DNA of 64,000 nucleotides from Xestospongia bergquistia. Lineage: Eukaryota > Porifera > Demospongiae > Haplosclerida > Petrosiidae. Shown here one piece after another: positions 11,291 through 35,296 of this stretch. Each line of letters begins with the position of its first letter. Positions within the stretch are counted from its first letter, which is position 1. The stretch covers positions 5,751,001 to 5,815,000 of the forward strand of contig OZ014411.1 in the NCBI GenBank assembly GCA_963965975.1. The letters are read 5' to 3'. A program made the translations under genes and the position numbers. The notes beneath the pieces are model-generated. The model was not told the origin of the DNA and did not search any database. It worked only from the letters and a program-made list of their open reading frames with translations.

Positions 11291-11299
11291 TATTGTCAT

Positions 11300-14770: not shown

Positions 14771-14939
14771 GTTAGTTATGACATAGTTCTATGCAAATTA
14801 CTTGAAGTAATGACTTTAATGTCCTATGCTACAACATTGCTAATTAAGTCTCAAATACTTGATGCAAGATTCCAATTGCAGCATGTGTCACTTAATTGAG
14901 TCAATAACAATGGTATCTGAACTCTTAGCTCACAAGGTA

Positions 14940-15170: not shown

Positions 15171-15787
15171 TAGTTGTAACTTAGACCAAATAACTTGAAA
15201 ATAATGGAGACTTTGTGAAATCCATTCTTGTAAGATATCTATTAAATTGTCCTTATTTTTATTCTTTTTTTGTACAGGTGGTATCTACAGGGTACTGTTG
15301 TTATGTGGGAGACTTATCAGCACTAAAGAAAATGTAGTCTAGTAATAGAACTTCAGACACAGACAATGATAGAAAGTGAACCTTTGCTCACAGAATTCAA
15401 CTATCCTTTCCTACTTTTAACTAGTAACTTATATGCTGCCTCATCATCTACTTACATTCACTATATATCCTGAGTTGTACACACATATGTTCTGACTTGT
15501 GTTAATTTAGTTCATCAGACTCTTTAATTTAATGAAATAACTTGTTTTGTTATAAGATTACTGCATTATTAATATTTGTGAAAAAAATTGACAAATAATT
15601 CAAAAATGAGGACTAAATTTGAATGCATGACAAATTTTTGAACAATTACGTATAATTATGTAACACTCTGTCGCTGCCCTAACATAAATCACGTGGTCTA
15701 ATATTATCAATTAATGATGTCATAACTGACTTGGATTACGCGCATTTGATGTAAAGTAAGATTGGCGCAGCCAAGACAAGCCCAGTA
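15171..15787 (+). other. Leader region of GT6 copy 1
   Basis: The sequence is almost identical to 29750-30362 upstream of GT6 copy 2, and carries a CACGTG motif near 15690 and a GCGCAG block just before the start codon. No gene is seen. It probably holds the promoter and 5' untranslated region, although I could not assign a TATA box. Confidence 0.4.
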
Positions 15788-16786
15788 ATGAAAGAAACTA
15801 AGCTAGGTCTTTGTATTTTCGTGCTACTTTACTGCGTTTTTTTTCTGTTTGGAACTTATTGGGTGCACTTTGATTATCCAACTTCACATCGCCAATGGAA
15901 CTTATCTACAAGTTGTCTGGTTCAACAATTGATTGAAGAGAATTTGTCATATGTTCTAAAAGAGAAACCGTCTTTACCTAATGTAAGTAAAAGTGAAATT
16001 CGTTATAGAATAGAGACACCTTGGGGAGCACCAATAGTATGGGCTGATACTGAAGCCAATGTATTAGCTAGACAACCAAAGGGAGTTTACAATGTAGCAC
16101 TTAATATTGTTGCTATTGCCAAGTACATAAAATTCTTACAACCTCTTATTACAAGTGCTGACAAGTACTTCATGAGAGATCATAATGTTACTTATTTTGT
16201 TATCTCAGATAAACTTGATGAAGTAGCTAAAGTGAAGACAAACCGTCATATTGTAAGTATTATGGAGAAAAGTCAAGGCTGGCCAAATAATACTTTAGTG
16301 AGATTTCAGTTTATTAATAAACACAGAGACGTATACCATAACATGAACTTTTTTTTTCAAATTGACGTTGATATGCTCTTTGTTTCTAGTTTTAATAGTG
16401 AGGCCTTAGGTTCAAGAGTAGGTACCCTACATCCTGGTGTTTATTGGAAACAAAGACTATCATTCCCATATGACAGAAACCCTAAATCAACAGCTTATAT
16501 TAACCGATATGAAGGAGAGTACTATTTTGCAGGTGGAGTATTTGGTGGTTGTGTAAGTGAAGTCATCACTATGGCTGATATAATTGTCAAGAATATATTA
16601 ACAGATCTTCATAAATACAACTACATAGCTTTGTGGCATGATGAGAGTCATCTTAATAGATATTTCATTGATCACCCTCCAACTAAAGTATTGTCTCCGG
16701 AATATTGTACCCCAGAAGATTGGATAATCTCAACAAAACATCGACTTTTGGCTTTGAACAAAAACCATAAAGCTATTCGTAGTTAA
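15788..16786 (+). CDS. GT6 (ABO-type) glycosyltransferase, copy 1
   Basis: A single exon for 332 residues, close to vertebrate GT6 lengths (human ABO is 354). Residues about 6-24 are a signal-anchor, so the protein should be a type II Golgi enzyme. The GT6 core starts at TPWGAPIVW (77-85). DVD at 193-195 is the metal-binding DXD motif that holds UDP-sugar. GTLHPG (212-217), YYFAGGVFGG (245-254), [10 protein letters not shown] (283-292, with Glu286 matching the catalytic Glu303 of human ABO), VLSPEY (301-306) and the C-terminal KNHKAIR are all hallmark segments. The family transfers GalNAc or Gal in alpha-1,3 linkage onto Gal/GalNAc-terminated glycans. Residues spaced as human ABO 235, 266 and 268 are Gly217, Ala248 and Gly250; Gly at 235 and 268 is the A-type (GalNAc) state. 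The start is shared with copy 2. Confidence 0.96.
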   Translation: MKETKLGLCIFVLLYCVFFLFGTYWVHFDYPTSHRQWNLSTSCLVQQLIEENLSYVLKEKPSLPNVSKSEIRYRIETPWGAPIVWADTEANVLARQPKGVYNVALNIVAIAKYIKFLQPLITSADKYFMRDHNVTYFVISDKLDEVAKVKTNRHIVSIMEKSQGWPNNTLVRFQFINKHRDVYHNMNFFFQIDVDMLFVSSFNSEALGSRVGTLHPGVYWKQRLSFPYDRNPKSTAYINRYEGEYYFAGGVFGGCVSEVITMADIIVKNILTDLHKYNYIALWHDESHLNRYFIDHPPTKVLSPEYCTPEDWIISTKHRLLALNKNHKAIRS

Positions 16787-18071
16787 TTTTTAAACTTATT
16801 TCTAGTTGTTTTGATACTTTCATGTTTATAACTGGTAACGCCGTTGCTACTCATTTGCTAGTCTATCGTTGCCGCCCCTTCGCTAAGAGAAAGGAAGGCT
16901 TTTGTGATACAAGCATATGTGACAAGATTTGCAAAAAGGAACCACTTCTGTCACAACATTTGTGACCTAATTTAAGAAAAAAACACTGTTAAAACATAAC
17001 ACAAACAGTTTTGCATACATGTAGAGTTGTTATGCATATATAGCAAATGTATGTATACAAAACTGAGATGTTGTAAATGTTTTAACAATGGTTTGTTCAA
17101 AAATCAGGTACCAAATGTTTTGACAGAAGTGGTCCCTTTTTGCAAATCAGGTCACATATATTAGAATGTATGTTCGGTTTAGGGAGGTATTTTCCTGAGT
17201 GGGAGTCAAGCACAAATGAAAATTATATAGAGAAAATGTTTGCGATTCTTTTTCATTGGTTGTGGTGTTGATGTAACTGACAGAGCAATGACTATGGAGC
17301 ACCCTAGAAAGCAAAAATAAAGAATGATTCTTAAACTGATTCTCAATCAATTCTGTAATTGATACTTGATTGTTAAACCTATTCTCAATAGATTTTAGTC
17401 CAATGGTATGACTATGAATCATAGTCTTTATCGCCTCAGGTGTAACTTAATTTAGATAATTAGAACCTGCAATCTTGATAATTTTGTGATGATGATGATG
17501 TGTTACTGAATTTATTGTTAATTTAAATACTTGATACATTTTTTTTCATTAAGACATTGGGGGACAGTTACTGAGATCAGTAAAACGTGTTATTACAAGG
17601 AATGAAAAGATCATGATTGCAAGTTGTGCACTAAGGAGCTGCAATCTTCTTTTCAAATATATTAGAAAATAATACTTTAGTATCAAAACGAAACAAAAGT
17701 AAACAAACGTAATGAAGACGTCTCTACTTCTATAAACTACTTTCTCTGGATCAGTAGTTACTTTGATATTCCAAGTGCAGAAAGTTGATTTCTTCTGAAA
17801 ATATCTTCAAGTCTAGGTAGCCAATTCTTGTTCACCGACGTCATGCCCTTCGAGCATTGTAAGCCAAAATCCTTTCTCGCATTAAGCGAGTGGGCGAGAC
17901 TAGCAAACTGAAAACCACACCTTCTATTATGAAAGCAACTGTGGAATGCAGTGTAACCTATTGTTGTAGACAAAATGCATATAATTATGTACACAATAAT
18001 TACATGCAGTACATGAAGCTTTTTACTATTTTTGTGTACAAACCGATTAACTAAATATTGCAGCTCAGAAT
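16787..18071. other. 3' flank of GT6 copy 1
   Basis: No gene is supported. The flank holds the inverted-repeat element at 16915-17159, AT-rich sequence shared with 31362-32370, and from about 17908 the segment found downstream of every GT6 gene here. Bases 17794 onward have no counterpart in the GT6 copy 2 unit. Confidence 0.5.
16915..17159. mobile_element. Miniature inverted-repeat element, ATATGTGAC family, unit 1
   Basis: The 245-bp element has terminal inverted repeats of about 40 bases, beginning ATATGTGAC and containing GATTTGCAAAAAGG and ACCACTTCTGTCA on both ends. There is no coding content. It is shared with 31490-31735 but absent from the matching places after GT6 copies 3 and 4 (near 46430 and 50200), so it inserted after those lineages split. 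Confidence 0.85.
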
Positions 18072-18075
18072 GACA

Positions 18076-19913
18076 TGTCATGGCAAATTTGTTCCTAGTT
18101 AAAATTAGACCTAGGTCCAATTTTTGCATGCACGTTAAATTTGGACCTAGGAAAATAAAGTCAGTATAAGTTATGTGATTATAGGTTATATTATATAGGT
18201 AATGTTACTGTGGTAACTATACTTTACATTATGTACATGTACAACACTTATTATAATGGTATGTATTATTATTACTATTATTATCATTATGGTTATTATA
18301 TGTGTGTATGCACTTAATTATTATTTCCTGTTCTTATTCATTTCCTGTTTCTGTACTATATAATATGCATGTTTTTAGATTAGATTAGATTCCCTTTTTC
18401 ATACTATTCAATACTACTCGAGACTCTGCTCGGTTTTGCTGTACTATTCCACTTTCTATTCTACTCGAGTTCGGTCTTTCTCAATTCTTCTATTCTAAGC
18501 TGGGCCACAGACACAACAGTTACAATTAATTAAGAGTTTTTATACAAGCGTAAGTGTCACATATCCATAATAAGTGCCTCTTGGTCTGCCAAATGACACT
18601 TGGGACTTCAACACAATCTTCATGATACCATTCTTTCCAGTCTTTGTACTCAATCATTCTACCCTCTTCTGGTTGACGACACTTGCAGTATACTCTGAAT
18701 TTCATATTAGCAACATATTGCTTTGCTTTCTTTTTTCGCTGCTGGCAAGGGAAAGGGGTAATTTTCAAGACAATTACCCTAAATCTGGTATGTCTGCTTT
18801 AGTTATTCTAAATATGGTATGTCTGCTTTAGTCTGTTTTTTGTTTATATCTATAGGCAAAACAGGTTTACGACCAAACATTACTTCAAACAGTAAATACA
18901 GTGAAGATTCATGCCTCGATAGAAAGAAAGCAGTCAATATCAAAACAGTTTACTGATGATTCTCAGATACCTGGAAGTGTTATAGGCAAAAATACAGCTA
19001 TTTAGATATTCATCCCAGGTATTTTTGTTGTTAATGCAAAACTTAATAAGCATTCTCTGTAGAGTTTGGTTAAATCGTTCATCTAAACTGTTAGCCTATA
19101 AGGACAAAAAAATACAGAATCTTAGTTAATTACAGTTAACTTAAATGTGAATTCTGACCTGTGGGTGATATGGAGTGGTTAAATAATGTTTGGTGTTGAG
19201 TTTTCTCATTAATTCTCCATTTAAAATATTTCTAAACTCTCTCCCTTGATCAGATGTTATAATTCTTGGGAGACCCATTGTCATAAAAAGCTAGTAAAGG
19301 AATGGATCATTACCACTGTTTAAAATATTGATCTGTCTACCTTCAACAACTCATAAGCCACTCCTACAACCTCTTTTGTTGGTAAAGCAGCTGCTGCAAC
19401 CCATTTTGTGAAATAATCACTAATCGTTAAAATATATCAATTTCCTGATTGAGACACAGGCGACAATGGTCCAATAAAATCAATTGTGATGTGGTACCAC
19501 GGGGAATGAACTGGTATAGGGTGTAACTCTGGTCTTGTAGTCAACTTGTCTCTCGTTCTTTGACACTCATCACATGCAGATACCTATGATAAGTCACAGT
19601 ACAACTTATAATTAAGAAAAACACACCATTTACAACTTGCTTCATATCTTTTATGACTCCCTTCCATGTAAATATCGCTTTTTTGACACTTTGAGAACTT
19701 CACCAAGTGGCTAAAGCTCTCCATTTAAGTACACACAACATAAGAAGTGATTAATCGATTTGTATGTGTCAAATTCCACTTCTCTTTACCAAATTATACA
19801 GTCTGAGACGCCTGGGTCCAAATATTGCAAGGCGGAATTAGTTTTGCAGACTTTTTGTTGCCAAATTTGGTCCTAGGTCCAAATTTTGCACCCGGACCAA
19901 ATTTTTCGTGACA
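18076..19913 (-). mobile_element. Ginger-like DNA transposon with gypsy-type integrase and PHD finger
   Basis: The 1838-bp element is bounded by inverted termini starting TGTCATGGCAAATTTG at the left and TGTCACGAAAAATTTGG (complement) at the right, with related TTGGACCTAGG blocks inside. It is flanked by a 4-bp duplication GACA (18072-18075 and 19914-19917). The paralogous segments near 990, 46632 and 50381 contain the uninterrupted GACACAC site. Inside, on the - strand, is a retrovirus/gypsy-type integrase and then a PHD-like finger. A cut-and-paste element with a gypsy-like integrase, TGT-type termini and a 4-bp duplication matches the Ginger group (Gypsy INteGrasE Related). The copy is probably dead because of the stop described below. 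Confidence 0.8.
18529..19590 (-). pseudogene. Gypsy/Ginger-type integrase with C-terminal PHD-like finger, broken
   Basis: Reading - strand blocks in order: a CDECQR segment, IDFIGPL (first catalytic Asp), FTKWVAAAALPTKEVV, ITSDQGREF (second Asp), TTPYHPQ, then NSLDERFNQTL (catalytic Glu), WDEYLNSCIFAYNTS, and MFGRKPVLPID. This is the DDE integrase core. It ends with YCKCRQPEEGRMIEY and EWYHEDCVEVP, a PHD-like zinc finger. Splice-like junctions occur, e.g. HPQ followed by GTCAGA and the next block preceded by CCTATAG (about 19157 to 19095), so the source gene had introns. An in-frame TGA at 19439-19437 follows SQSGN, and the region between FAYNTS and MFGRKP is disturbed. Product would be a transposase; this copy looks inactive. 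Confidence 0.75.
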
Positions 19914-19917
19914 GACA

Positions 19918-21396
19918 CACAAATCACAAACTTATTGAAACTTAAAGGAACTACACAAAACAACTTTATAATCCTGTGTTACCAGTTGTCTGATTTAGTT
20001 TGCAATTAAATCCTCTAATGTACCCTCTATTGAATTGATAAATCTGACAGACTGACTTATTGTTTTATATTTTTACTTGATCTTATTAATATTCACTGTA
20101 AAAATTGATTGATTGATTTAGCTACTACTTGGAAACATAACACTATTTTAATTGCTAATGTACTATAAAATTGACTGTTTATGTAGCTAGATAAGCAGTA
20201 TTAGTAATGCATTAGTACTTGGTCTTGGCATTGCATGAAATTAATGTGTAAAATAAAATAATAGCATGAACCCAATACCTTCAGAACTACATATTAATAT
20301 AATACACACTATATATAGCCAATGAGGACTGGCAGTCTCAACTAAATAAACCTTTAGATCCCTCATCTGAGACAGGAGGTAAGTTAGTAATATATAGACA
20401 ACTACAACAGGAGCCATTGCCACCTAGTTATATGTTTGCCAATATGACTGCGAAGAGATGTTGGACTATGGCAGCCATATGTGGGGGTCATCTGCCCCTA
20501 GCAGTTGAGGGGATGTTTTCATGTAACTAAAGATACCTCTAAAGGATAAACTATGTACTCTTTGTAACACAAATTCAGTGGAAGATGTACCTCATTTTGT
20601 CCTGTTCTGTCCAAAGTACAATAACATATAACTCAAACTTTACAACACAATCACTTCCAAAGAACCATCCTTTTACTCACTTCCCCACACAGACAAACTC
20701 ACTATCATTTTATTAAATGAATTCAGCCATATGTCATCGATGTATCTCAATGAAAGATTGAATTTAGTTTTGTAATCATTAATTTTGTTTTCCTTTCATG
20801 TTTTGTATAGTCACCGTAAGTTTATTACTTAATCCAAAATTTTTTATTTATATCACATTACTTTATCTTATTTGTAACTAACTCGTCACTCGTAAGCCGA
20901 AGCAACTGAAGGGTCCATCAAAATCTTACCTTGGTTTCTCTCTCTCTCTGTGTGTGTGTGTGTGGTTCGGTCACACTTAGAAATTCGATAATTGGTTAAG
21001 GGAACATGGAACGCAGGTATGAAAAAGCACGTGATGATTTATTACACAGCTAAAATGTTTACTTGTTTAGCAATGCAATAAACTTGAAGAAAGGAAAAAG
21101 CAAAACATTTAAAACAATGAAAAGATAAGACGTCTAGAGAAGTGTGAAAGTGAATAAGATCAAAGACTAAGTTAGAAGCTAAGTATATAGAAATTATACT
21201 ACAAATGCTAAGAGTTTACTTTATCCCAGACAGACATGAAGGTCAAAAACTGCATTTGTCGTTAAATCTAGCCTATCACTTTAGAATAATCACATTGGTT
21301 AAATAAACTAATCAATTTAATCAATCAATACTGGTTAAATCTAATCAACGTCGTAATTAACGTATATATTGTTAAAGGTCAGACTAGACTCTAGAG
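19918..21396. other. Spacer between GT6 copy 1 and fucosyltransferase-like copy 2
   Basis: Holds the continuation of the GT6 3' flank, the CACTGTAAAAATTGATTG half-element (about 20095-20215), a LINE fragment, a CT/GT microsatellite at about 20937-20964, and from about 20890 the conserved upstream region of the fucosyltransferase-like gene. It matches 32370-33895. No intact gene is seen. Confidence 0.5.
20524..20778 (+). mobile_element. C-terminal fragment of a non-LTR retrotransposon ORF2, unit 1
   Basis: The + strand reads PLKDKLCTLCNTNSVEDV, then PHFVLFCPKYNN, and on to a terminal segment ending LNERLNLVL and a stop. The C-x2-C...H...C pattern with ED before the His and CPKY after it is the usual C-terminal zinc motif of LINE reverse-transcriptase proteins. 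Nothing of the reverse transcriptase itself is present, and there is an internal stop. The copy at 32890-33150 is frame-shifted in the same motif. Confidence 0.55.
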
Positions 21397-22797
21397 ATGA
21401 AAAATCAGAAGTATCTCGCTCGTATATTAATTGTCGCTGCACTGTTTGCGATTTACGTATTGCTGGATGTCTTTATACGTAGTAAATACGGCTCTCTAGA
21501 CGTACAAGTTCAATGGAAAATGTATGGTGAGCAGTATCTACTTGCATCAACAAACGCAACAAGAAAACTGAACACAGTGAACAATGATATACATGTACAC
21601 ATACCTACGCTACTACATGGCGTTAAAGAAAGATTTCAAAGAAACTTGTTGGCTAGTTTTCCTCTGACTTGTTATCCAGACAAGGAAGGACACTTCCCAA
21701 GGAAATACGAGACATTTCTCAACACTTTAGCTAAATATGCTGACAATCATGCTACAATGTCAAACAATGTGAGAACATTAGTATGGCATTGTCCAGTCAA
21801 TCGTTATGTTGGTGGATTGGCTGATAGGCTGAAAGGAATAACATTTGCTTTATTGTTAGCTATTTCCAGTAATAGACGATTGATACTAGACTGGGAGTCA
21901 GCTGCTGAAAGCAAATATTTTAAACCGAACTTGATCAATTGGGTGGACAGACATTTGTCTAAGAGTATTTGGCAAAATAATGCAGAAACCATTTCTTCTC
22001 ACATGGTCACATTGAGTCTGTTTGAAGCAGGAGAATATCCTTATATACAAATGTCAATTAAAGACTGGCAAAGTTATCTGAATATCATAGGTAGTAATAT
22101 GCCACTCGTTGTTATGGCAACAAACATGGAAGTTTCACTTGTTAGGAACATTTCCAAAGCAAATCAATCGTGGCTAAGTGGAAGCTTTGATATATCTGGT
22201 CTGTCTAATCTAACTGATCATGATTTAAATGATATTATCGGTTTAGTTTCTAGGTACTTGTTCAAATTGGACAAAAAAGTTTTAGAAGAGGTTTCTAAAG
22301 CCAAAATTGTTTTAAAATTGACTAACCAAGTTTATGCTGGGCTTCACTTAAGGACCGGTTTTGCTGGAAATTTTTTTCATTCAGAGAAGCACCCAAAAAT
22401 TGTAAAAGATAGACAAATTTGGAAGAAAGCATTGCAGTGTGCAGTGTCCTCTGCTGATAAATATATTGGAAATGATAGTCTAATATTTTTGTCTACAGAC
22501 TCAAATATGGTAAAGGAAATGGCTATTAAAAGATATGGTGTAAGATTTCGAACATTAAATAATTATGTAATTCATATAGATCATATTAACAACAAACAAA
22601 AGTTAAGAATGCGTGAAAAAGAAGGAGTTTTATCTAGTTTAGTTGACCTTATTCTACTAGCAGAATCTTTTGTACAAGTAAGAGGAGACAGTGGATACTC
22701 ATGGATTGCTAGTCTTTTGTGTGGTCCTCTACCCAATAAACATCTTATTTATAGTCGTACCTGCACAATGGATGACTTGAACATTATTCATATATAG
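21397..22797 (+). CDS. Fucosyltransferase-superfamily-like type II membrane glycosyltransferase, copy 2
   Basis: Single exon, 466 residues, same layout as copy 1: signal-anchor at about 8-26, GGLADRLKG near 139-147, GLHLRTGF near 315-322, and GDSGYSWIASLLCG near the C-terminus. Its N-terminal third follows copy 3 (IRSKYGSLDVQVQW, KERFQRNLL) while residues about 185-240 follow copy 1 (AETISSHMVTLSLFEAG), so it looks mosaic. Residue Gly262 in SGSFDI replaces Glu of copy 1. AATAAA is at 22860-22865. It faces a short dead KIF27 3' fragment. Expected to act in the Golgi on GDP-fucose and an unknown glycan acceptor. Confidence 0.8.
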   Translation: MKNQKYLARILIVAALFAIYVLLDVFIRSKYGSLDVQVQWKMYGEQYLLASTNATRKLNTVNNDIHVHIPTLLHGVKERFQRNLLASFPLTCYPDKEGHFPRKYETFLNTLAKYADNHATMSNNVRTLVWHCPVNRYVGGLADRLKGITFALLLAISSNRRLILDWESAAESKYFKPNLINWVDRHLSKSIWQNNAETISSHMVTLSLFEAGEYPYIQMSIKDWQSYLNIIGSNMPLVVMATNMEVSLVRNISKANQSWLSGSFDISGLSNLTDHDLNDIIGLVSRYLFKLDKKVLEEVSKAKIVLKLTNQVYAGLHLRTGFAGNFFHSEKHPKIVKDRQIWKKALQCAVSSADKYIGNDSLIFLSTDSNMVKEMAIKRYGVRFRTLNNYVIHIDHINNKQKLRMREKEGVLSSLVDLILLAESFVQVRGDSGYSWIASLLCGPLPNKHLIYSRTCTMDDLNIIHI

Positions 22798-23714
22798 TAA
22801 TATATTAATTATAATTCAATTTTGTTGTAGTACATTTAAACAGTTAGTTTAATTTGGTTAATAAAGTGATTCATCCTTTTATCTTGGTTGTACTTATGTT
22901 TTTCTGACATTCAAACTTTTTCTTGGTAAAGCTATATGTAGTCTTAGGAGAACATGGCAATTTTTTTTCTTAAATTGGACCATATAAAATGTAAATGAGA
23001 TCATGCATACAATAACTCAAACATTACTTTCAACTTGCCTTACCTAATCAGCAAAGGATATCAATAAAATATTGTATATTATGTATAATTTGTTATGTAT
23101 GATGTTCTGCATTTAGTAACATTTGTAACATTCTGTAATCAGATTAAACATGTGTGAACTTGTCTTTCTTTTTGGCTTGACAGTACAGCAAAATGTCATA
23201 TTGAACATAGTATATATTTAAATCCAAAATTTGGAATGGGATTTGCATGAGTTACTTCACCATATGACCAGACTAAGGTGGTTATAGCAGTTAGGTATAG
23301 TTAATACTACACAAGGACTTGTGGCAGGGACAGAGTTAGGCAAACATGGTTAGGAATGCTTAGGTATTAAAATATTATGTCCTCCAATTCAACTATGTAG
23401 AAACACTACTAATTCAGTAATAATTATATACATATACATACATATATATGTACTATTATTTTTGGACTTGAATACTATTTGTAGTTATAACAATGAAAGT
23501 AGCTGTACTTAGTAAATTTCTTGTGTATACATAGGTAGAAAGCATGGTCACACAACTCCACCCCTCATAAATATACCACGTATATTATTATGTAAAGGTA
23601 TGTGCATGTACAGCAGGATTTACACAAGTACTTATTTTACATCATGAATAGAAACGAATGAAATGAATGTACTAATACACAAGTGAGAAAACTCAGTATC
23701 CATATATTATATGA
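22798..23714. other. 3' flank of fucosyltransferase-like copy 2
   Basis: The flank includes the AATAAA signal at 22860-22865 and AT-rich sequence matching 4066-5012 and 35297-36198. No gene is seen. Confidence 0.6.
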
Positions 23715-23906
23715 TCATAAAATTGTTCTTTTATTTAAATCAATGAGCTCTTGTTTTAAATCACGACTTCTTTTCTTGTAAAAGTAAAGATCTTTCTCTA
23801 AACATTTAATCTTTGTATTTAATATTTAAATATCCTTGCTAGAATTAGACAGGTCTTCAGTATGAGCGATGTGATCCAGTAATGTATTAACATCTTGAAC
23901 ATGCTC
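23715..23906 (-). pseudogene. KIF27 terminal-exon copy, broken
   Basis: It matches the last exon of KIF27 (36390-36199), with the acceptor CAG at the same place and the segment [11 protein letters not shown] intact. The Glu codon that follows SSKDI in the real gene is TAA here, so the frame is closed in the middle. It lies convergent to fucosyltransferase-like copy 2, as in the other units. Confidence 0.85.
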
Positions 23907-24102
23907 CTGTAATAATTATAATAGTAGTTGTTAATAGTAAATGTTTACTTTTAATTGTTTGTGTTAAATTAAATTGGTATGGAAATTGTAATAATAGACA
24001 CTATGCTGAGTTGCTAAGCTAGCGTAACTGACTCAGAAAGTGCTTGCTAAATCTACATGCTCTAAGTAACGATATTATATTTACATCAAGGGTACTGATA
24101 AT

Positions 24103-24281
24103 CAGGGGCGGATCTAGGAAAAAGTTCTTGGGTGGGCCCTGCATGAGGCTAATTATTCATAGAGGTGCAGTTAATCTTAACTAATTAAGGCGTGGTTTAT
24201 CAATAAAAATAAAGTAACGTGGGTGGGACAAAATTTTAGGGTGGGCCTGGCCTTCCCTGCCCCCCCATAGATCTGCCTCTG
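24103..24281. mobile_element. hAT-type miniature element with 8-bp target duplication
   Basis: The 179-bp element begins CAGGGGCGGATCTAGG and ends with the imperfect complement AGATCTGCCTCTG. It is flanked by CTGATAAT (24095-24102) and CTGATAGT (24282-24289), an 8-bp duplication with one mismatch. The equivalent spots near 5390 and 36575 have no insert. Termini and duplication length are those of hAT elements. Confidence 0.85.
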
Positions 24282-24559
24282 CTGATAGTTAATACCTTTT
24301 GGACTTTGTTACAGATGATATATTCATCATGTATTACACTGGTGTATATAAGCCATCACTATCCTTGTTAAATGTCATATTGATGAAAGTCTTATGCTAA
24401 AATGTTCTGTTTTATAGTACATATACATGTATATCTGTCTTATCTGTTACTTCATTTATAAAAAAATATGACTATTCATTAAGCACAAATATCTCCATAT
24501 GGATTAATACATGTAGTTGCTAAGCAACATGATACTATTATATGTAAGGAGTTATTGTT

Positions 24560-24635
24560 ACAGACCTTTTGTGTCTTGTGAATTTTCCATTGTTTGTCCA
24601 ACTGAGACTGACTTAATAGTCTTTGTAATATAATA
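24560..24635 (-). pseudogene. Fragment of KIF27 long coiled-coil exon
   Basis: The fragment matches the 3' part of the exon at 37182-36849, ending at the GTCTGT donor equivalent, and stops abruptly at about 24635 where GT6 pseudogene sequence begins. It marks the right breakpoint of the large duplicated unit. Confidence 0.75.
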
Positions 24636-24643
24636 ATACATGA

Positions 24644-24985
24644 CTTAAAATTTTCACCATTGCTATGTTCTCACAACCTCTTATTGCATTGCATCTGCAG
24701 ATAATTACTTTATTCATGGGACTTATTTTGTACTTTTTATAATTATAAAGTAACTTATTTTGTCATGTTAGATAATTTCAATGAAGTAGCTAAGTTAAGA
24801 CAAACCATTCTATTTTAAGAGCTATGGAGAAAAATCATGGTTGGCCAATAATATTTGAGTGAAATTTCAGTCTGTTGGTTAACATAAATATATGTACCAA
24901 AATATAATACAAATTGATGGTCATATGCTCCTTGTATCTAGTCTTAATAGTAAGGCCTTGGGTCAAGAGTAGGTACACTACATTT
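24644..24985 (+). pseudogene. GT6 pseudogene A
   Basis: The DNA aligns with about 16100-16435 of GT6 copy 1: the CTCACAACCTCTTATT, ACTTATTTTGT, GAAGTAGCTAA, GGAGAAAA and AATTGATGGTCATATGCTC stretches are all recognisable, the last spanning the DXD region. Many indels, including a small internal repeat of the ACTTATTTTGT block, destroy the frame. It shares that internal repeat and the following 160 bases with pseudogene B at 43690-44095, in the opposite orientation. Confidence 0.85.
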
Positions 24986-25153
24986 AAAAAAACAACTTCA
25001 AATTTGAATTGAGCATATTGAGACGCTTGTACAGCTGCCTCCACATGCTTTTAGTCTTTCTATGTTGATATGTCATGTCTTGATGTCATTGAGACTGTAC
25101 ATGTCATTAAGTAGCCTTGTACCCAGGCATTCATTTATTTTGTGAACACCTGG

Positions 25154-25863
25154 TGCAGGAGAATATCCTTATATTCAAATGTCAATTAAAGACTCACAAG
25201 GTTATCTGAATATCATAGGTAGTAATATACCATTTGTTGCTATGGCATGTTTCACTTGTTAGGAACATTTCCAAAGCAAATCAATCTTGGCTAAGTGGAA
25301 GCTTTGATATATCTGGTCTGTCTAATCTAACTGATCATGATTTAAATGATATTATCGGCTTAGTTTCTAGGTACTTGTTCAAATTGGACAAAAAAGTTTT
25401 AGAAGAGGTTTCTAAAGCCAAAATTGCTTTAAAATTGACTAACCAAGTCTATGCTGGCCTTTACTTAAGGACCCGTTTTGCTGGAAATTTTTTTCATTCA
25501 GAGAAGCACCCAAAACTTGTAAAAGATAGAAAAATTTGGAAGAAATCATTGCAGTGTGCAGTGTCCTCTGCTGATAAATATATTGGAAATGATAGTCTAA
25601 TATTTTTGGCTACAGACTCAAATATGGTAAAGGAAATGGCTATTAAAAGATATGGTGCAAGATTTCGAACATTAAATAATTATGTAATTCATATAGATCA
25701 TATTAACAACAAACAAAAGTTACGAATGCGTGAAAAAGAAGAAGTTTTATGTAGTTTAGTTGACCTTATTATACTAGCAGAATCTTTTGTACAAGTAAGA
25801 GAAAACAGTGGGTACTCATGGATTGCTAGTCTTTTGTATAGTCCTCTATCCAATAAACATCTT
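25154..25863 (+). pseudogene. Fucosyltransferase-like pseudogene, 5'-truncated
   Basis: Homology to the 466-residue family starts at the segment GEYPYIQMSIKD (residue about 212) and ends after PNKHLI (residue about 455). A deletion of roughly 10 bases near 25244-25250 removes the NMEV region and shifts the frame. Downstream of this the frame is open for over 200 codons, including the H-x-R motif, here GLYLRTRF with His changed to Tyr and Gly to Arg. Loss of the first half, the catalytic motif changes and the missing C-terminus all point to a dead gene. Confidence 0.85.
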
Positions 25864-25869
25864 ATTTTA

Positions 25870-28200
25870 TCTTACGTTATTGTCATCATATTCAATCCAT
25901 TCTCCACCTGGTGTTTTCACTAATGCAGTGTCTATTGTGTTTGCTTTAATGTAGATATCTTATAGCTGTATAGTAACTTACAGTGACTTGTATCTACAGA
26001 TATTGGATGTCCATGATGAACCTACATGGCAACAGGATTAAAAGGATACTTTCATTATAATCAGTACTAACAGCTATTCCAAGTAATCTGTAAGTTCTTG
26101 AGGTGTAATCATGTCTGGTAGTATTTTCAATTGTAATTGTCCTATCAGATATAATATCAGATGGATTACATTGCCTGTATCTTACTCTTGTAGCAACAAT
26201 GGCTTGTTTGATTTTTTATTTGTATGTGTGTTTCAAGAAATGCCTATTATCTGTACATCAGGTAATGAAGCAACTTTGTGCTAACAGTCATTAGACGTTC
26301 ATTGCAAGGTATGCATCTGTAGGCTTTATTATAATGCCATTATTGTTAACAATATACAGCTTACAAATGATGGGATGTTTTTTCTGAGTAGCAAGATATT
26401 TTCTTCCACCACAATTCAGATATGCGGTCTTCTTTCTGTCCATGCAACTACTGATATTAATAGTATTTTTGTGTACTCTTCTCCAACACGTATCTAATTG
26501 TTAATATATATAAACAACACAGTGATCATCAGTGTAACAGACCTCCCTGCAGATAGGACATTGTTTCTCAGTGATTGTATATATATATATTAAACAGTCA
26601 TTAGACAAATATTCTTAGTTAATTACAGTTGTACATTGCTTAAATCTCCATTACCTCCATTGATTGAACACTAACAGCATCAACAAGTAATTCTATTCTT
26701 TCTATTACATCATTCTGTCCACCAAAATCTATGTGTGTTGATGTCATCAATGCCTATTAAATTACATAAATTATATCATATTGCTTAGAAATAAATGAAT
26801 ACTGTTATTGTCTGTAAATTAACAACGTTATCTTTTACTGTGCAGTTGATGTTTAAGTATTCTTTTTGTACTGGTGTTAATTCCACTTGTGGTATACCTT
26901 TTAAAATAATTCATCAATGCTTCAAAGTTTGGGGTTTCTAATTACCACACAGATGTTTTGCCAGGGGGGTTACATGCAATAACTGGAGGACACAGTTTAT
27001 CCAACATAGGTTGCTAGTTTGATTTTCAAAACCCTTGTTTGGTGTATAGAACAACTCCAGAGGTGCTCCAGTCTCATAGATATATAAGAATATCTTGTCA
27101 AAAGTGACTCTTTATTAACACTGTAAAAATTAATATGTTATTTTAACAATTAGTTTGTGCTTTACATGGGTGGATTACTATGGAATTTAAAATTTATGCA
27201 AATTACTCATTACATAATATACTAGTACATAAAAGTACAACATTTCTACAAATTACATAGTGAGTAATTCACAGAATTCTATATTCCATAGTAGTACATC
27301 CATGTAAACTACAAATTAGTTGTTAAAATGACGTATTAATTTTTACAGTGAACTCACAGGTCTTGATGGAAGGTTGAAATAAGTTACAATGGCATCTTCA
27401 TCCCCATCATTGTATTCATCACCCCTAGAGGATTTCAACTCTTCACTATCATCAATGACTTCTTGTTTTTCCTGCATTAAAGTGAGTACTAAATACATTA
27501 AACACTTAATTAATCATACATTGCATTCTACAGACAATGTTTCATCACAGCTTTCCCTATAGGTGATTATAATTTGTGTTTGTGTATATATCATTAGTCA
27601 TTTGACTTTGGTTTAATGGACATGTGGGATGATTTTGCATTGCTAACTTCATTATATTGGTACCTAAGTGAGGAAAGTGAACGTTATCCCTAAACATATT
27701 CCTATGCATACAGCAATATAAAGGCTTTTGGTAGTGACCAATTATGTTTTGTCCTGGCTTCTTAGATCTTTTTGACCACTTCTCCTCAAGCTGTTTTGCT
27801 TTTGGTTTATCAAGCTGTTTCTGAATACATGTAGGTATATTTTGTACATATAATGTACTCTACCTTTAGTTTTTGTCTGTCTTTAGTAGATGCATTGTCA
27901 ATATAAGCCAACTGCCTTCCAAAGTGAATTGAGTAGTGTTCCTTTATAAAAAGATCTGGTTGCTTTCTGTGTTTTGGGTGGTCACTTCTTTTCAATATTA
28001 GGTTCCAGGCCTCAATTCTTACAGCAGTTTGTTTGCTGCTAGTTGACACATCTCCTACCTTAACACTCCTCGGTATACTTGTCCAAAAGGTAACCATAGA
28101 CAACCACTTCTGTTCCATTGTTTCCATCCATTTAGGTTGGGTTTGCAGGACATGTTTTGTCAGTACAATATATACTTCAAACTTGACTGGCTATTGTGAC
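25870..28200 (-). pseudogene. Unrecognised multi-exon gene or remnant, unit 2
   Basis: Near-identical copy of 11300-13600. The clear 109-codon exon is at 28190-27864 with the same acceptor and donor. The CPICREV block near 26580-26400 is interrupted by a short extra sequence, which suggests decay in this copy. I do not recognise the family. Confidence 0.4.
27120..27350. mobile_element. Miniature inverted-repeat element, CACTGTAAAAA family, unit 2a
   Basis: Paralogue of 12513-12744 at the same place in the duplicated unit, with the same termini. It therefore inserted before the unit was duplicated. Confidence 0.85.
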
Positions 28201-28511
28201 TTTGGATGCAAACGACAATATGATATTCAATAGTGTGTCAAGTTAGTACAAATATTATCAACCATATCTATTTTCATTATGGAATTTCCAATTTATCAAG
28301 ATTTTGCATAATTGTTTTTATTTGTAGTTACTGACACAGAAAAAGTGAAAAAACATTGGAACAAATTAAGTGAACACAACATTTAATCCAAGACAAGGTA
28401 TATTTTGATAAAATAAATGAATATATTCCTAAAATACTCAGAACTTACTATATACAAAACGATTAAAAAAAGAAAATGATATATCAAAGAAAAAGGATGC
28501 ATGCATAAGTC

Positions 28512-28998
28512 TCATGTTTTCTTCACTCCTTTGTAGGCAGCTTTTAATTCGGCAACTATGTGTTGCTCAAGACGAAATTCTTCAATTACTTCAATAGTGA
28601 AATTGAGTAAAACTTGACTTCCTTTAACATGGCTAACCCAAGGTATATATTGTCCATTTTTCCTTTCTCTGGATGCCCTCCATTTACGTCTGTAAGTATC
28701 ATCATACCACCTAATTTCAATGTCACATTTTCTTTCTCTAGTTGTTAATACTCTTCCAATAATAGGCTCATCTGTCCACTCATCGTGAGTTACCGCTATA
28801 AATGTAACCTCTTTGAACGAGTCACCCGACAAAATAGTTTGTTTCTCTTTGTTTTGTAGATGTTCTGGCTGCTCATTAGTAGGTTGTTCACAAACAGTAG
28901 TTTGTTGATGAAGCTCTTGAGTTTGTTTCTCTTTGTTACACAGAGTTCTTCTTCGACCAGTATAAACTGTGCTATAGCACTGACAGCAGTGACATTTT
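28512..28998 (-). other. Unrecognised terminal exon, unit 2
   Basis: Copy of the exon at 13911-14398 with an intact frame and only a few residue changes (for example GRVLTT followed by Arg instead of Gly, and EEFRLEQ instead of EEFCLEQ). The Cys-rich start, Gln/Glu-rich linker and final beta-rich domain are all kept. Function unknown. Confidence 0.35.
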
Positions 28999-29061
28999 GC
29001 TTAATGTGTGTGGTTATAGCTGTAATGATCATAATTACATTGTCATTTCCTAGCAAGGACA

Positions 29062-29349
29062 TTGCTAATAACTTTGTTATACTTCAATGTTTTTTTTGTT
29101 TTATTTGCTCAGAAGGATGCTATACCAATGGATAGTAACGACTTATATATTCTTTCACACGGGAGTATTTGCTTTTATCAGATGTGGACTTGGTCACCAA
29201 GATCTGTACAATTCTCTACAGGTTCAAGTTTTTCTCCATTGTCTTTAATCCATCAAGTTTTGAACAGTAGACACATATATCAGTCCCAATGGCTACAAAA
29301 GGTTTTTCAACCATTGAACATTAAACAAATCCAGTTCAATTCACCATAG
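29062..29349 (+). other. Open exon-like frame upstream of GT6 copy 2, unknown
   Basis: Copy of 14507-14770 with the same splice-acceptor-like tract and frame. Function unknown; possibly non-coding leader sequence. Confidence 0.25.
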
Positions 29350-29518
29350 GTTAGTTATGACATAGTTCTATGCAAATTACTTGAAGTAATGACTTTAATG
29401 TCCTATGCTACAACATTGCTAATTAAGTCTCAAATACTTGATGCAAGATTCCAATTGCAGCATGTGTCACTTAATTGAGTCAATAACAATGGTATCTGAA
29501 CTCTTAGCTCACAAGGTA

Positions 29519-29749
29519 CACTGTAAAAATTAATATGTCATTTTAACAACTAATTTGAGCTTACATGGATTAGCTACTATGGAGTATAGAATTCTTGTTT
29601 ATTGCTCACTACGTAACTTGTTGGTATGTTGTTCCTTTAAAATCCAACAAAGTATACAATGATAATTCATGTAAATTCTATATTCCATAGTAATCCACCC
29701 ATGTAAAGTACAAATTAATTGTTAAAATGACATATTATTTTTTACAGTG
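29519..29749. mobile_element. Miniature inverted-repeat element, CACTGTAAAAA family, unit 2b
   Basis: Paralogue of 14940-15170, again flanked by TA on both sides, upstream of GT6 copy 2. Confidence 0.85.
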
Positions 29750-30362
29750 TAGTTGTAACTTAGACCAAATAACTTGAAAATAATGGAGACTTTATGAAAT
29801 CCATTCTTGTAAGATATCTATTAAATTGTCCTTATTTTTATTCTTTTTTGTACAGGTGGTATCTACAGGGTACTGTTGTTATGTGGGAGACTTATCAGCA
29901 CTAAAGAAAATGTAGTCTAGTAATAGAACTTCAGACACAGACAATGATAGAAAGTGAACCTTTGCTCACAGAATTCAACTATCCTTTCCTACTTTTAACT
30001 AGTAACTTATATGCTGCCTCATCATCTACTTACATTCACTATCCTGAGTTGTACACACATATGTTCTGACTTGTGTTAATTTAGTTCATCAGACTCTTTA
30101 ATTTAATGAAATAACTTGTTTTGTTATAAGATTACTGCATTATTAATATTTGTGAAAAAAATTGGCAAATAATTCAAAAATGAGGACTAAATTTGAATGC
30201 ATGACAAATTTTTGAACAATTACGTATTATGTAACACTCTGTCGCTGCCCTAACATAAATCACGTGGTCTAATATTATCATTGAATGATGTCATAACTGA
30301 CTTGGATTACACGCATCGCTTTGATGTAAAGTAAGATTGGCGCAGCCAAGACAAGCCCAGTA

Positions 30363-31361
30363 ATGAAAGAAACTAAGCTAGGTCTTTGTATTTTCGTGCT
30401 ACTTTACTGCGTTTTTTTTCTGTTTGGAACTTATTGGGTGCACTTTGATTATCCAACTTCACATCGCCAATGGAACTTATCTACAAGTTGTCTGGTTCAA
30501 CAATTGATTGAAGAGAATTTGTCATATGTTCTAAAGGAGTTACCGTCTTTACCTAATGTAAGTAAGAGTAAAATTCGTTATAGAATAGAGACACCTTGGG
30601 GAGCACCAATAGTATGGGCTGATACTGAAGCCAATGTATTAGCAAGACAACCAAAGGGAGTTTACAATGTAGCACTTAATATTGTTGCTATTGCCAAGTA
30701 CACAAAGTTCTTACAACCTCTTATTACAAGTGCTGACAAGTACTTCATGAGAGATCATAACGTTACTTATTTTGTTATCTCAGATAAACTTGATGAAGTA
30801 GCTAAAGTGAAAACAAACCGTCATATTGTAAGTATTATGGAGAAAAGTCAAGGCTGGCCAAATAATACTTTAGTGAGATTTCAGTTTATTAATAAACACA
30901 GAGACGTATACCATAACATGAACTTTTTTTTTCAAATTGACGTTGATATGCTCTTTGTTTCTAGTTTTAATAGTGAGGCCTTAGGTTCAAGAGTAAGTAC
31001 CCTACATCCTGGTTATTATTGGAAACAAAGACTATCATTCCCATATGACAGAAACCCTAAATCAACAGCTTATGTTAACCGATATGAAGGAGAGTACTAT
31101 TTTGCAGGTGGAGTATTTGGTGGTTGTGTAAGTGAAGTCATCACTATGGCTGATATAATTGTCAAGAATATATTAACAGATCTTCATAAATACAACTACA
31201 TAGCTTTGTGGCACGATGAGAGTCATCTTAATAGATATTTCATTGATCACCCTCCAATTAAAGTATTGTCTCCGGAATATTGTACCCCAGAAGATTGGAT
31301 AATCTCAACAAAACATCGACTTTTGGCTTTGAACAAAAACCATAAAGTTATTCGTAGTTAA
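30363..31361 (+). CDS. GT6 (ABO-type) glycosyltransferase, copy 2
   Basis: Single exon, 332 residues, nearly identical to copy 1. It has the signal-anchor at about 6-24, [12 protein letters not shown] at 193-195, YYFAGGVFGG at 245-254, [10 protein letters not shown] with the catalytic-type Glu286, and VLSPEY. Differences from copy 1 include Leu for Lys in KELPSLP, Ser for Gly in SRVSTLHPG, Tyr for Val after HPG, and Ile for Thr in PPIKVLSPEY. The HPG-Y residue lies next to a position that sets donor choice in ABO enzymes. UDP-GalNAc or UDP-Gal transferase activity in the Golgi is expected. It sits 2.5 kb upstream of fucosyltransferase-like copy 3 on the same strand. Confidence 0.96.
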   Translation: MKETKLGLCIFVLLYCVFFLFGTYWVHFDYPTSHRQWNLSTSCLVQQLIEENLSYVLKELPSLPNVSKSKIRYRIETPWGAPIVWADTEANVLARQPKGVYNVALNIVAIAKYTKFLQPLITSADKYFMRDHNVTYFVISDKLDEVAKVKTNRHIVSIMEKSQGWPNNTLVRFQFINKHRDVYHNMNFFFQIDVDMLFVSSFNSEALGSRVSTLHPGYYWKQRLSFPYDRNPKSTAYVNRYEGEYYFAGGVFGGCVSEVITMADIIVKNILTDLHKYNYIALWHDESHLNRYFIDHPPIKVLSPEYCTPEDWIISTKHRLLALNKNHKVIRS

Positions 31362-32889
31362 TTTTTAAACTTATTTCTAGTTGTTTTGGTACTTTCATGT
31401 TTATAACTGGTAACGCCGTTGCTACTCATTTGCTAGTCTATCGTTGCCGCCCCTTCGCTAAGAGAAAGGAAGGCTTTTGTGATACAAGCATATGTGACAA
31501 GATTTGCAAAAAGGGACCACTTCTGTCACAACATTTGTGACCTAATTTCAGAAAAAAACACTGTTAAAACATAACACAAACAGTTTTGCATACATGTAGA
31601 GTTGTTATGCATATATAGCAAATGTATGTATACAAAACTGAGATGTTGTAAATGTTTTAACAATGGTTTGTTCAAAAATCAGGTACCAAATGTTTTAACA
31701 GAAGTGGTCCCTTTTTGCAAATCAGGTCACATATATTAGAATGTATGTTCGGTTTAGGGAGGTACTTTCCTGAGTGGGAGTCAAGCACAAATGAAAATTA
31801 TATAGAGAAAATGTTTGCAATTCGTTTTCATTGGTTGTGGTGTTGATGTAACTGACAGAGCAATGACTATGGAGCACCCTAGAAAACAAAAATAAAGAAT
31901 GATTCTTAAACGGATTCTCAATCAATTCTGTAATTGATACTTGATTGTTAAACCTATTCTCAATAGATTTTAGTCCAATGGTATGACTATGAATCATAGT
32001 CTTTATCGCCTCAGGTGTAACTTAATTTAGATAATTAGAACCTGCAATCTTGAAGATTTTGTGATGATAATGATGTGTTACTGAATTTATTGTTAATTTA
32101 AATACTTGATACATTTTTTTTCATTAAGACAATGGGGGGACAGTTACTGAGATCAGTAAAACGTGTTATTACAAGGAATGAAAAGATCATGATTGCAAGT
32201 TGTGCACTAAGGAGCTGCAATCTTCTTTTCAAATATATTAGAAAATAATACTTTAGTATCAAAACGAAACAAAAGTAAACAAACGTAATGAAGACGTCTC
32301 TACTTCTATAAACTACTTTCTCTGGATCAGTAGTTACTTTGATATTCCAAGTGCAGAAAGTTTCTGATTTAGTTTGCAATTAAATCCTCTAATGTACCCT
32401 CTTATTGACTTGATAAATCTGACAGACTGACTTATTGTTTTATATTTTTACTTGATCTTATTAATATTCACTGTAAAAATTGATTGATTGATTTAGCTAC
32501 TACTTGGAAACATAACACTATTTTAATTGCTAATGTACTATAAAATTGACTGTTTATGTAGCTAGATAAGCAGTATTAGTAATGCATTAGTACTTGGTCT
32601 TGGCATTGCATGAAATTAATGTGTAAAATAAAATAATAGCATGAACCCGATACCTTCAGAACTACATATTAATATAATACACACTATATATAGCCAATGA
32701 GGACTGGCAGTCTCAACTAAATAAACCTTTAGATCCCTCATGTGAGACAGGAGGTAAGTTAGTAATATATAGACAACTACAACAGGAGCCATTGCCACCT
32801 AGTTATGTGTTTGCCAATATGACTGCGAAGAGATGTTGGACTATGGCAGCCATATGTGGGGGTCATCTGCCCCTAGCAGTTGAGGGGAT
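31362..32889. other. Spacer after GT6 copy 2
   Basis: Matches the GT6 copy 1 flank but lacks everything between 17794 and 19992 of that unit, including the Ginger-like element. The join is at about 32360. It contains the inverted-repeat element at 31490-31735 and the half-element near 32470-32590. No gene is supported; small - strand frames at 31722 and 32098 have no recognisable content. Confidence 0.5.
31490..31735. mobile_element. Miniature inverted-repeat element, ATATGTGAC family, unit 2
   Basis: Paralogue of 16915-17159 with the same long terminal inverted repeats, downstream of GT6 copy 2. Confidence 0.85.
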
Positions 32890-33150
32890 GTTTTCATGTA
32901 CCTAAAGATACCTCTAAAGGATAAACTATGTACTCTTTGTAACACAAATTCAGTGGAAGATGTACCTCATATTTTGTCCTGTTCTGTCCAAAGTACAATA
33001 ACATATAATTCAAACTTTACAACACAATCACTTCCAAAGAACCATCCTTTTACTCACTTCCCCACACAGACAAACTCACTATCATTTTATCAAATGAATT
33101 CAGCCATATGTCATCGATGTATCTCAATGAAAGATTGAATTTAGTTTTGT
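32890..33150 (+). mobile_element. C-terminal fragment of a non-LTR retrotransposon ORF2, unit 2
   Basis: Copy of 20524-20778. The LCTLCNTNSVEDVPH motif is present, but an extra base pair run after the His shifts the frame so that the second half of the zinc motif is lost. A dead relic duplicated with the unit. Confidence 0.5.
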
Positions 33151-33264
33151 AATCATTAATTTTGTTTTCCTTTCATGTTTTGTATAGTCACCGTAAGTTT
33201 ATTACTTAATCCAATTTTTTTTATTTATATCACATTACTTTATCTTATTTTGTAACTAACTTGT

Positions 33265-33314
33265 CACTCGTAAGCCGAAGCAACTGAAGGGTCCATCAAA
33301 ATCTTACCTTGGTT

Positions 33315-33358
<44 letters not shown>

Positions 33359-33895
33359 GTTTGGTCACACTTAGAAATTCGATAATTGGTTAAGGGAACA
33401 TGGAACACAGGTATGAAAAAGCACGTGATGATTTATATATGTTCACAGCTGAAATGTTTACTCGTTTAGCAATGCAATAAACTTGAAGAAAGGAAAAAGC
33501 AAAACATTTAAAACAATGAAAAGATAAGACGTCTAGAGAAGTGTGAAAGTGAATAAGATCAAAGACTAAGTTAGAAGCTAGGTATATAGAAATTATACTA
33601 CAAATACTAAGAGTTTACTTTATCCCAGATAGACATGAAGGTCAAAAACCGCATTTGTCGTTAAATCTAGCCTATCACTTTAGAATAATCATATTGGTTA
33701 AATAACCTAATCAATTTTTACAATGACAAATGAAAAAGTATGATGTTTACTTTATATACAATCTGTAAAAACATATATTGGTTGAATCAGCCAATCAATT
33801 TTTACAGTGATATACAGTAAACACTAGTTGTGATTTAGTTCCTGACAGTGACGTCGTAATTATATGTTGTTAGAGAGATTAGATCTAGACTAGAG
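33265..33895 (+). promoter_or_regulatory. Upstream region of fucosyltransferase-like copy 3
   Basis: Matches 1170-1560 and 20890-21290 and contains a CT then GT microsatellite (about 33317-33358), longer here than in unit 1. A short inverted-repeat element (about 33710-33830) follows, as in the flank of copy 1. Probably the promoter region, by position and conservation only. Confidence 0.4.
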
Positions 33896-35296
33896 ATGAA
33901 AAATCAGAAGTATCTCGGTCGTATATTAACTGTCGCTGCACTGTTTGCGATTTACGCATTGCTGGATGTCTTTATACGTAGTAAATACGGCTCTCTAGAC
34001 GTACAAGTTCAATGGAAAATGTATGGTGAGCAGTATCTACCTGCATCAACAAACGCAACAAGAAAACTGAACACAGTGAGCAATGATATACATGTACACA
34101 TACCTACACTACTACATGGCGTTAAAGAAAGATTTCAAAGAAACTTGTTGGCTAGTTTCCCTCTGACTTGTTATCCTGAGAAGGAAGGACATTTCCCAAG
34201 GAAATACAAGACATTTCTCAACACTTTAGCTAAATATGCTGACGATCATGCTACAATGACAAACAATGTGAGAACATTAGTATGGCACTGTCCAGTCAAT
34301 CATTATGTTGGTGGATTGGCTGGTAGGATGAAAGGAATAACATTTGCTTTATTGTTAGCTATTTCCAGCAATAGACGATTGATACTGGACTGGGAGTCAG
34401 CTGCTGAAAGCAAATATTTTAAGCCTAACTTGATCAATTGGGTAGACAGAGATTTGTCTAAGAGTATGTGGCAAAATAATGTTAAAATCATTTCTCCTCA
34501 TATGGTCACATTTAGTCTGTTTGAAGCAGCAGAATATCCTTATATTGAATTGTCAATTAAAGACTGGCAAGGCTATCTGAATATCATAGATAGTAATATA
34601 CCACTTGTTGTTATGGCAACAAACATGGAAGTTTCACTTGTTAGGAACATTTCCAAAGCAAATCAATCGTGGCTAAGTGGAAGCTTTGATATATCTAGTC
34701 TGTCTAATCTAACTGATCATGATTTAAATGATATTATCGGCTTAGTTTCTAGATACTTGTTCAAATTGGACAAAAAAGTTTTAGAAGAGGTTTCTAAAGC
34801 CAAAATTGCTTTAAAATTGACTAACCAAGTCTATGCTGGGCTTCACTTAAGGACCGGTTTTGCTGGAAATTTTTTTCATTCAGAGAAGCACCCAAAAATT
34901 GTAAAAGATAGACAAATTTGGAAGAAAGCATTGCAGTGTGCAGTGTCCTCTGCTGATAAATATATTGGAAATGATAGTCTAATATTTTTGTCTACAGACT
35001 CAAATATGGTAAAGGAAATGGCTATTAAAAAATATGGTGCAAGATTTCGAACATTAAATAATAATGTAATTCATATACATCATGTTAAGAACAAACAAAA
35101 GTTAAGAATGCGTGAAATAGAAGGAGTTTTATCTAGTTTAGTTGACCTTATTATACTAGCAGAATCTTTTGTACAAGTAAGAGGAGACAGTGGATACTCA
35201 TGGATTGCTAGTCTTTTGTGTGGTCCTCTACCCAATAAACATATTATTGATAGTCGTACCTGCACAATGGATGACTTGAACATTATTCATATATAG
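33896..35296 (+). CDS. Fucosyltransferase-superfamily-like type II membrane glycosyltransferase, copy 3
   Basis: Single exon, 466 residues. Signal-anchor at about 8-26, GGLAGRMKG near 139-147 (copies 1 and 2 have GGLADRLKG), GLHLRTGF near 315-322, GDSGYSWIASLLCG near the C-terminus. The middle (residues about 184-236) is clearly more diverged than the rest, with VKIISPHMVTFSLFEAAEYPYIEL. AATAAA lies at 35359-35364. This copy is directly convergent with the intact KIF27 gene, whose stop codon is about 900 bases away, so the pair probably shows the original arrangement that was duplicated to the left. Role as for copy 1. Confidence 0.8.
   Translation: MKNQKYLGRILTVAALFAIYALLDVFIRSKYGSLDVQVQWKMYGEQYLPASTNATRKLNTVSNDIHVHIPTLLHGVKERFQRNLLASFPLTCYPEKEGHFPRKYKTFLNTLAKYADDHATMTNNVRTLVWHCPVNHYVGGLAGRMKGITFALLLAISSNRRLILDWESAAESKYFKPNLINWVDRDLSKSMWQNNVKIISPHMVTFSLFEAAEYPYIELSIKDWQGYLNIIDSNIPLVVMATNMEVSLVRNISKANQSWLSGSFDISSLSNLTDHDLNDIIGLVSRYLFKLDKKVLEEVSKAKIALKLTNQVYAGLHLRTGFAGNFFHSEKHPKIVKDRQIWKKALQCAVSSADKYIGNDSLIFLSTDSNMVKEMAIKKYGARFRTLNNNVIHIHHVKNKQKLRMREIEGVLSSLVDLIILAESFVQVRGDSGYSWIASLLCGPLPNKHIIDSRTCTMDDLNIIHI

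Follow-up and report, generated by a model that had tools for sequence, protein, structure and literature searches.

Among the closest described counterparts of the locus considered here are the blood-group ABO enzymes of vertebrates, which belong to glycosyltransferase family 6 (GT6) and are paired with the fucosyltransferases FUT1 and FUT2 of family GT11. A paper from 2014 records GT6 in vertebrates, in 36 species of bacteria, and in two cyanophages as well as two unicellular eukaryotes, but not in invertebrates; ABO and the bacterial BoGT6a both use 2'-fucosylated acceptors (PMC3961637). In ABO, the tripeptide at codons 266-268 determines the donor: the human enzyme with AGG yielded the A antigen plus some Forssman antigen, MGA or HAA gave the B antigen, and GGA gave both (PMC6351642). 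Here, we have analyzed a window of 64,000 nucleotides (bases 5751001-5815000 of the 28.2-Mb contig C1) from a eukaryote assembly whose 21 contigs total 146.46 Mb. The + strand of this window holds four open frames of GT6 and three of 466 codons that encode fucosyltransferase-like proteins. We tentatively propose that they form a co-amplified Golgi locus in which an alpha-1,3-Gal(NAc) transferase of family GT6 and an enzyme of the fucosyltransferase superfamily (GT37/GT23/GT65/GT68) may act in an ABH-like pathway, a proposal to which we give somewhat less than an even chance. For both families, the computed evidence comprises an N-terminal membrane helix, a family profile or fold, conserved residues and neighbouring pairs on the same strand.

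The GT6 identity of the copies at 15788 and 30363, proposed in the first-pass annotation, was confirmed by the Pfam profile PF03414 (E-values of 1.8e-63 and 2.8e-62, respectively), which matched all four window copies with 210.8-223.6 bits against a gathering score of 25. The best solved relatives were the human ABO transferases. For the six copies compared, identity with human ABO was 36-39% across 256 residues and with bovine GGTA1 31-33%, while P0107, which its source ascribes to a Babeliales bacterium, was 42-45% identical. Features in common with vertebrate ABO are the GT6 profile, a predicted type II membrane topology and the DXD and WHDES motifs, both kept in all 20 open copies of the genome (DXD as DVD or DAD). 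Unlike vertebrate ABO, these enzymes come from a non-vertebrate that has roughly 20 copies, each encoded by a single open frame, and they are linked to a fucosyltransferase-like family. At the position of ABO codons 266-268, the 20 copies read AGG (13), ASG (2), VGG (1) or YGA (4), and HAA, the GGTA1 tripeptide, was found in none; ASG, VGG and YGA lie outside the five tripeptides in the excerpt of PMC6351642. The A-type tripeptides are LGG and AGG, and AGG, found in many A transferases, is carried by G1 (15788..16786, + strand) and G2 (30363..31361, + strand). G3 (45306..46295, + strand) and G4 (49073..50062, + strand; read from the ATG at 49073, the listed open reading frame starting at GTG 49010) carry ASG. 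All four have DVD, and they fall into two groups of 332 and 329 residues, a difference of three codons. The four YGA copies are precisely the four GT6 genes of a second mixed cluster (see below). Three database proteins that are 84-85% identical to copies of this genome (P0055, P0057 and P0058), probably from a related species, likewise carry YGA, so that the AGG/YGA split is probably older than that divergence. The GT6 proteins are very probably alpha-Gal(NAc) transferases, and the predicted donors would be GalNAc in the window's cluster and Gal, or a mixture, in the second. In an unrooted tree made by a quick method (140 rows; the 120 listed of 1243 matches; P0047, the same as a window copy, and the fragments P0072 and L049 were excluded), the own copies formed one clade, membrane-type proteins (P0073-P0090) a second and proteins that are mostly shorter a third, with two vertebrate rows on long branches. 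Three further database proteins of 544-574 residues (P0091, P0099 and P0106) join a GT6 domain to PF00535 (GT2-type).

The partner family is represented in the window by F1 (2665..4065, + strand), with a predicted N-terminal membrane helix, F2 (21397..22797, + strand), whose protein was used for the structure model, and F3 (33896..35296, + strand). The F2 model shares the GT-B-like fold of the fucosyltransferase superfamily (GT23, GT37, GT65 and GT68), and this predicted fold places the protein within the fucosyltransferases, as originally suggested, and not outside them. In structure comparison, Arabidopsis FUT1 (AtFUT1; GT37, a xyloglucan alpha-1,2-fucosyltransferase) aligned with residues 70 to 466 and ranked about 2 Z units above FUT8. 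Moreover, His317, Arg319, Asp368 and Ser432 were kept in all 27 near-full copies read (30 were fetched), each of which has the H-x-R motif with its conserved Arg. Arg319 presumably corresponds to the catalytic Arg of the superfamily. In FUT8, this role belongs to R365 (PMC7014118).

Family assignment gave a mixed picture, since the fold agreed with the GT37/GT23/GT65/GT68 superfamily whereas the Pfam cut-offs of GT37, GT23 and GT11 were not reached. For the three window proteins, a Pfam scan returned no family above the cut-off and only weak unrelated matches. The GT37 profile PF03254 (XG_FTase) recognized none of the three, and its scores in 3 of 10 relatives (13.5-15.6 bits) stayed below the cut-off of 23.4 bits; PF05830 and PF19745, the profiles of GT23 (the family of FUT8 and NodZ), likewise recognized none, and their highest scores among the 10 relatives were 25.5 bits (cut-off 28.3) and 19.1 bits (cut-off 27.6), respectively. 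PF05830 is assigned to 2 of 46 relatives in the precomputed labels of the database. When the family profile was run against the protein database, 45 of 7995 scored candidates matched, none of them named. On the basis of the proteins scanned, the family looks like a fucosyltransferase branch beyond the Pfam models. The vertebrate pairing with FUT1 or FUT2 was not recovered: PF01531 (GT11) had no match in the three 466-residue proteins at E-values up to 10, and no GT11 chain was among the structure matches listed (the presence of GT11 in the structure set was not checked). GT11 was not found in the whole genome either, in a search whose control also stayed silent, so absence is not claimed. Taken together, the predicted activity of the 466-residue protein is most probably that of a fucosyltransferase, while the formation of Fuc-alpha-1,2-Gal is a doubtful prediction.

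These data bear on two alternatives. First, the 466-residue family might have another acceptor and linkage of the superfamily, either alpha-1,6-fucosylation of GlcNAc or O-fucosylation of proteins, while GT6 would act on a non-fucosylated acceptor in the manner of GGTA1; this agrees with the strong structure matches of the F2 model to FUT8, NodZ and POFUT and with NodZ profile matches in 5 of 10 relatives, all below the cut-off, but fits less well with the lead of AtFUT1 over FUT8, with the alignment of AtFUT1 from residue 70 to 466 and with the lack of HAA in the GT6 copies. We regard it as rather unlikely; it overlaps with the different-glycans explanation discussed below. Second, the 466-residue proteins might be catalytically dead or use another nucleotide sugar. 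Although they lack a Pfam match above the cut-off, the sequence search of the PDB gave no match for one 466-residue protein or for a 49-row profile, and F3 has lost Asp143, the invariance of the four residues named above in 27 of 27 copies makes this explanation very improbable.

Self-comparison of the window bore out the idea that whole units with one GT6 and one 466-residue gene each had been duplicated. Unit 1 (11217..24637) and unit 2 (25804..36956), each with GT6 followed by the fucosyltransferase-like gene, share 94-97% identity: 25804-32362 matched 11217-17786 at 96.9% over 6.6 kb, 32359-33717 matched 19984-21318 at 96.5% and 33851-36577 matched 21348-24102 at 93.9%. A stretch of about 2.2 kb (17786-19984) is present in unit 1 and absent from unit 2. 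In addition, a tandem duplicate with GT6 only spans 44731..52064 (48470-52064 against 44731-48311, 95.1% identity). The earlier coordinates of the open GT6 frames (15788 and 30363) and their 466-residue partners (21397 and 33896), all on one strand, proved correct, and the cluster is larger than they implied, with F1, G3, G4 and a broken copy of the 466-residue type in addition. The latter, a truncated C-terminal half at about 25155..25923 (+ strand) in which HLRTG has become YLRTR, lies at the unit boundary and is a probable pseudogene.

Judged from the sequence, the GT6 and 466-codon frames are very likely genes. Of the nine within-family pairs that the window allows, four were compared over their coding sequence; they differ by 17 to 85 substitutions per pair but show no indel event in 4,779 aligned bases, as against 63 events in the 11,932 bases covered by seven comparisons of flanking DNA. 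The frames are thus open beyond chance. In a simulation of random substitution at three pair distances, the chance of a stop-free frame was 3-13%, indels left aside. The ratio of nonsynonymous to synonymous substitution (dN/dS) was 0.25-0.46 for six GT6 pairs. By comparison, a piece of a kinesin gene copied by the same duplications (11219-10865, - strand; a copy of the KIF21A-type exon at 42211-41840) contains a stop and a gap, in contrast to the enzyme frames, which are still open.

Linkage of the two families was then evaluated across the genome, where GT6 occupies 20 open places and one split place (22 matches, the two halves of the split copy counted as one) and the fucosyltransferase-like family was represented by the 33 best of its 49 matches, including some broken copies. 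Within 100 kb of a member of the other family lay 16 of 21 GT6 places and 16 of 33 fucosyltransferase-like places, all in two mixed clusters on C1 (5.55-5.82 Mb and 6.49-6.53 Mb) that are about 0.7 Mb apart. Two of five GT6 clusters were within 50 kb of a fucosyltransferase-like cluster (P 0.0018 under random cluster placement), and inside the clusters a GT6 copy was followed within 7 kb by a fucosyltransferase-like copy on the same strand eight times against 4.65 expected (P 0.026). According to the trees, the GT6 and fucosyltransferase-like subfamilies of the window expanded recently, and a distinct recent clade of each family belongs to the second cluster, so co-amplification was seen in both mixed clusters. 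The first cluster also contains older lineages, namely two GT6 copies grouping with copies on C4 and several divergent fucosyltransferase-like copies. A fucosyltransferase-like copy of the first cluster, at 5597 kb, is sister to those of the second; a single ancestral mixed cluster is therefore possible. It should be noted that the fucosyltransferase-like tree (36 rows: 27 copies from this genome plus 9 of 46 relatives, without the fragments L013, L016 and L028 and three unfetched places) carried a tool warning of long branches. A relative may have the same arrangement, as suggested by a GT6 protein (P0050, 81% to the nearest own copy) and a fucosyltransferase-like protein (P0036, 50%) whose longest contigs are listed with the same length (503484). 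Thus, the earlier claim of linkage and co-amplification holds, with two clusters and the unit duplications behind it.

What such linkage means is less certain. About as likely as our proposal is that real Gal(NAc)- and fucosyltransferases act on different glycans and, having once become neighbours, were copied together by unequal crossing-over, the linkage having no pathway meaning. This would account for the unrelated kinesin-gene piece carried along in the duplications, for a unit boundary inside a fucosyltransferase-like fragment and for copies of each family standing alone elsewhere in the genome, and the closeness of the two clusters on one chromosome, together with the sister position of the 5597-kb copy, would allow a single origin of the linkage. 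It accounts less readily for the decay of the hitchhiking kinesin copy beside open enzyme frames, for pairing in two clusters with different subfamilies and for the equal contig sizes of P0050 and P0036.

Returning to the ABH-like pathway, the fucosyltransferase-like enzyme would transfer fucose from GDP-fucose to a galactose-containing chain, which GT6 would then cap in alpha-1,3 linkage, adding GalNAc in the case of the AGG/ASG copies and Gal in that of the second cluster's YGA copies. Surface or secreted glycans would in this way receive variable ABH-like termini that contain fucose. That both enzymes act on one glycan, which we hold to be possible though short of probable, is argued from their linkage and from the observation that ABO and BoGT6a act on 2'-fucosylated acceptors. 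Several points weigh against this pathway. It rests on computation and a predicted fold, and its activities are predictions. The fold match to Arabidopsis FUT1 is at 14% identity, Foldseek TM-scores normalized by query length were 0.33-0.49, and families of differing linkage share this fold, so that neither donor nor linkage is fixed by it. On the GT6 side, some Forssman-synthase activity of human ABO with AGG (PMC6351642) means that AGG leaves the acceptor unfixed, and ABO Asp326 is replaced by Pro in 19 copies and by Glu in the twentieth, a further difference from vertebrate ABO. The 466-residue genes had fairly high dN/dS values (0.54-0.65 in three pairs), indicating weak to moderate constraint, and F3, with Gly at Asp143, which is nearly invariant elsewhere, may be impaired. 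All linkage tests were chosen post hoc with the data already seen, three of the eight ordered pairs include a broken copy, and 17 of 33 fucosyltransferase-like and 5 of 21 GT6 places are more than 300 kb from the other family, so neither family always has the other nearby; segmental duplication alone can produce the linkage.

The host was described beforehand as a non-vertebrate animal, and this was supported. COX1 on the mitochondrial contig (18,997 bp) reads TGA as Trp at nine places (code 4), and a cathepsin-like exon (L071, at 3186392 of contig C9, genome G000), with others nearby, has the YGNHGC motif and reads CGCSYAF, in which Ser replaces the catalytic Cys; the Cys is retained by other cathepsin-like exons of the genome, as cathepsins should. 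We take L071 to be a silicatein-like exon. By this exon and the mitochondrial code, the host is probably a demosponge. Silicateins are proteins of siliceous sponges. Two COX1-like sequences interrupted by stops (L051 and L052; G000 C6, about 3.15-3.20 Mb) lie in a nuclear contig and are probable nuclear copies of mitochondrial DNA.

Other features of the window were also recorded. Exons of a kinesin gene lie on the - strand at 60153-55477 and 42211-41831 (Pfam Kinesin, E-values of 5.7e-31 and 3.5e-14, one further match below the cut-off; KIF21A_4th, 1.9e-9). The GT6 copies at 45306 and 49073 are antisense to it, between its motor and coiled-coil exons, and thus probably inside its introns. A coiled-coil-like open reading frame, assigned to no family, is duplicated on the - strand (8836-8576 and 37934-37713). 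Another open reading frame, of 162 codons, is present in both units on the - strand (13914-14399 and 28515-29000; 97% protein identity, no Pfam match), and a PHD-finger-like frame (18529-18798, - strand; 14.4 of 24 bits, below the cut-off) lies in the stretch restricted to unit 1. Minisatellites occupy 48067-48476, 51820-52064, 56289-57030 and 59279-59697, with units of 20, 20, 31 and 46 bases, and an Rfam scan of the window gave no match.

Sponges are known for glyconectins, fucose-containing surface glycans with species-specific self-binding (PMC7828597), and the known epitopes of these aggregation factor glycans (GlcNAc3S-Fuc and pyruvylated Gal-GlcNAc-Fuc) are not ABH-type. Identifying the glycosyltransferases for such epitopes is named as a task in PMC8271808. 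A-type structures in invertebrates are not new, since mollusc glycans carry blood-group-A type motifs (PMC8724618); among the open-access papers listed, titles and abstract beginnings yielded no report of sponge GT6 or ABO genes. One of these papers deals with alpha-Gal synthesis in ticks (PMC6154994). A role of the locus in self-recognition is no more than a hypothesis. A more speculative and improbable extension is that the two neighbouring clusters are A-like and B-like systems of a sponge, with GalNAc-type (AGG/ASG) and Gal-type (YGA) GT6, each amplified with its own non-GT11 fucosyltransferase subfamily, that would provide variable fucosylated glycans for cell or self recognition, the ABH-like module being convergent with the vertebrate one or older than it. 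An expanded animal GT6 family outside vertebrates alters the view of the origins of blood-group-type enzymes, given that GT6 was described in 2014 as unseen in invertebrates (PMC3961637), and the locus supplies concrete candidate enzymes for the fucose-bearing surface glycans of sponges.

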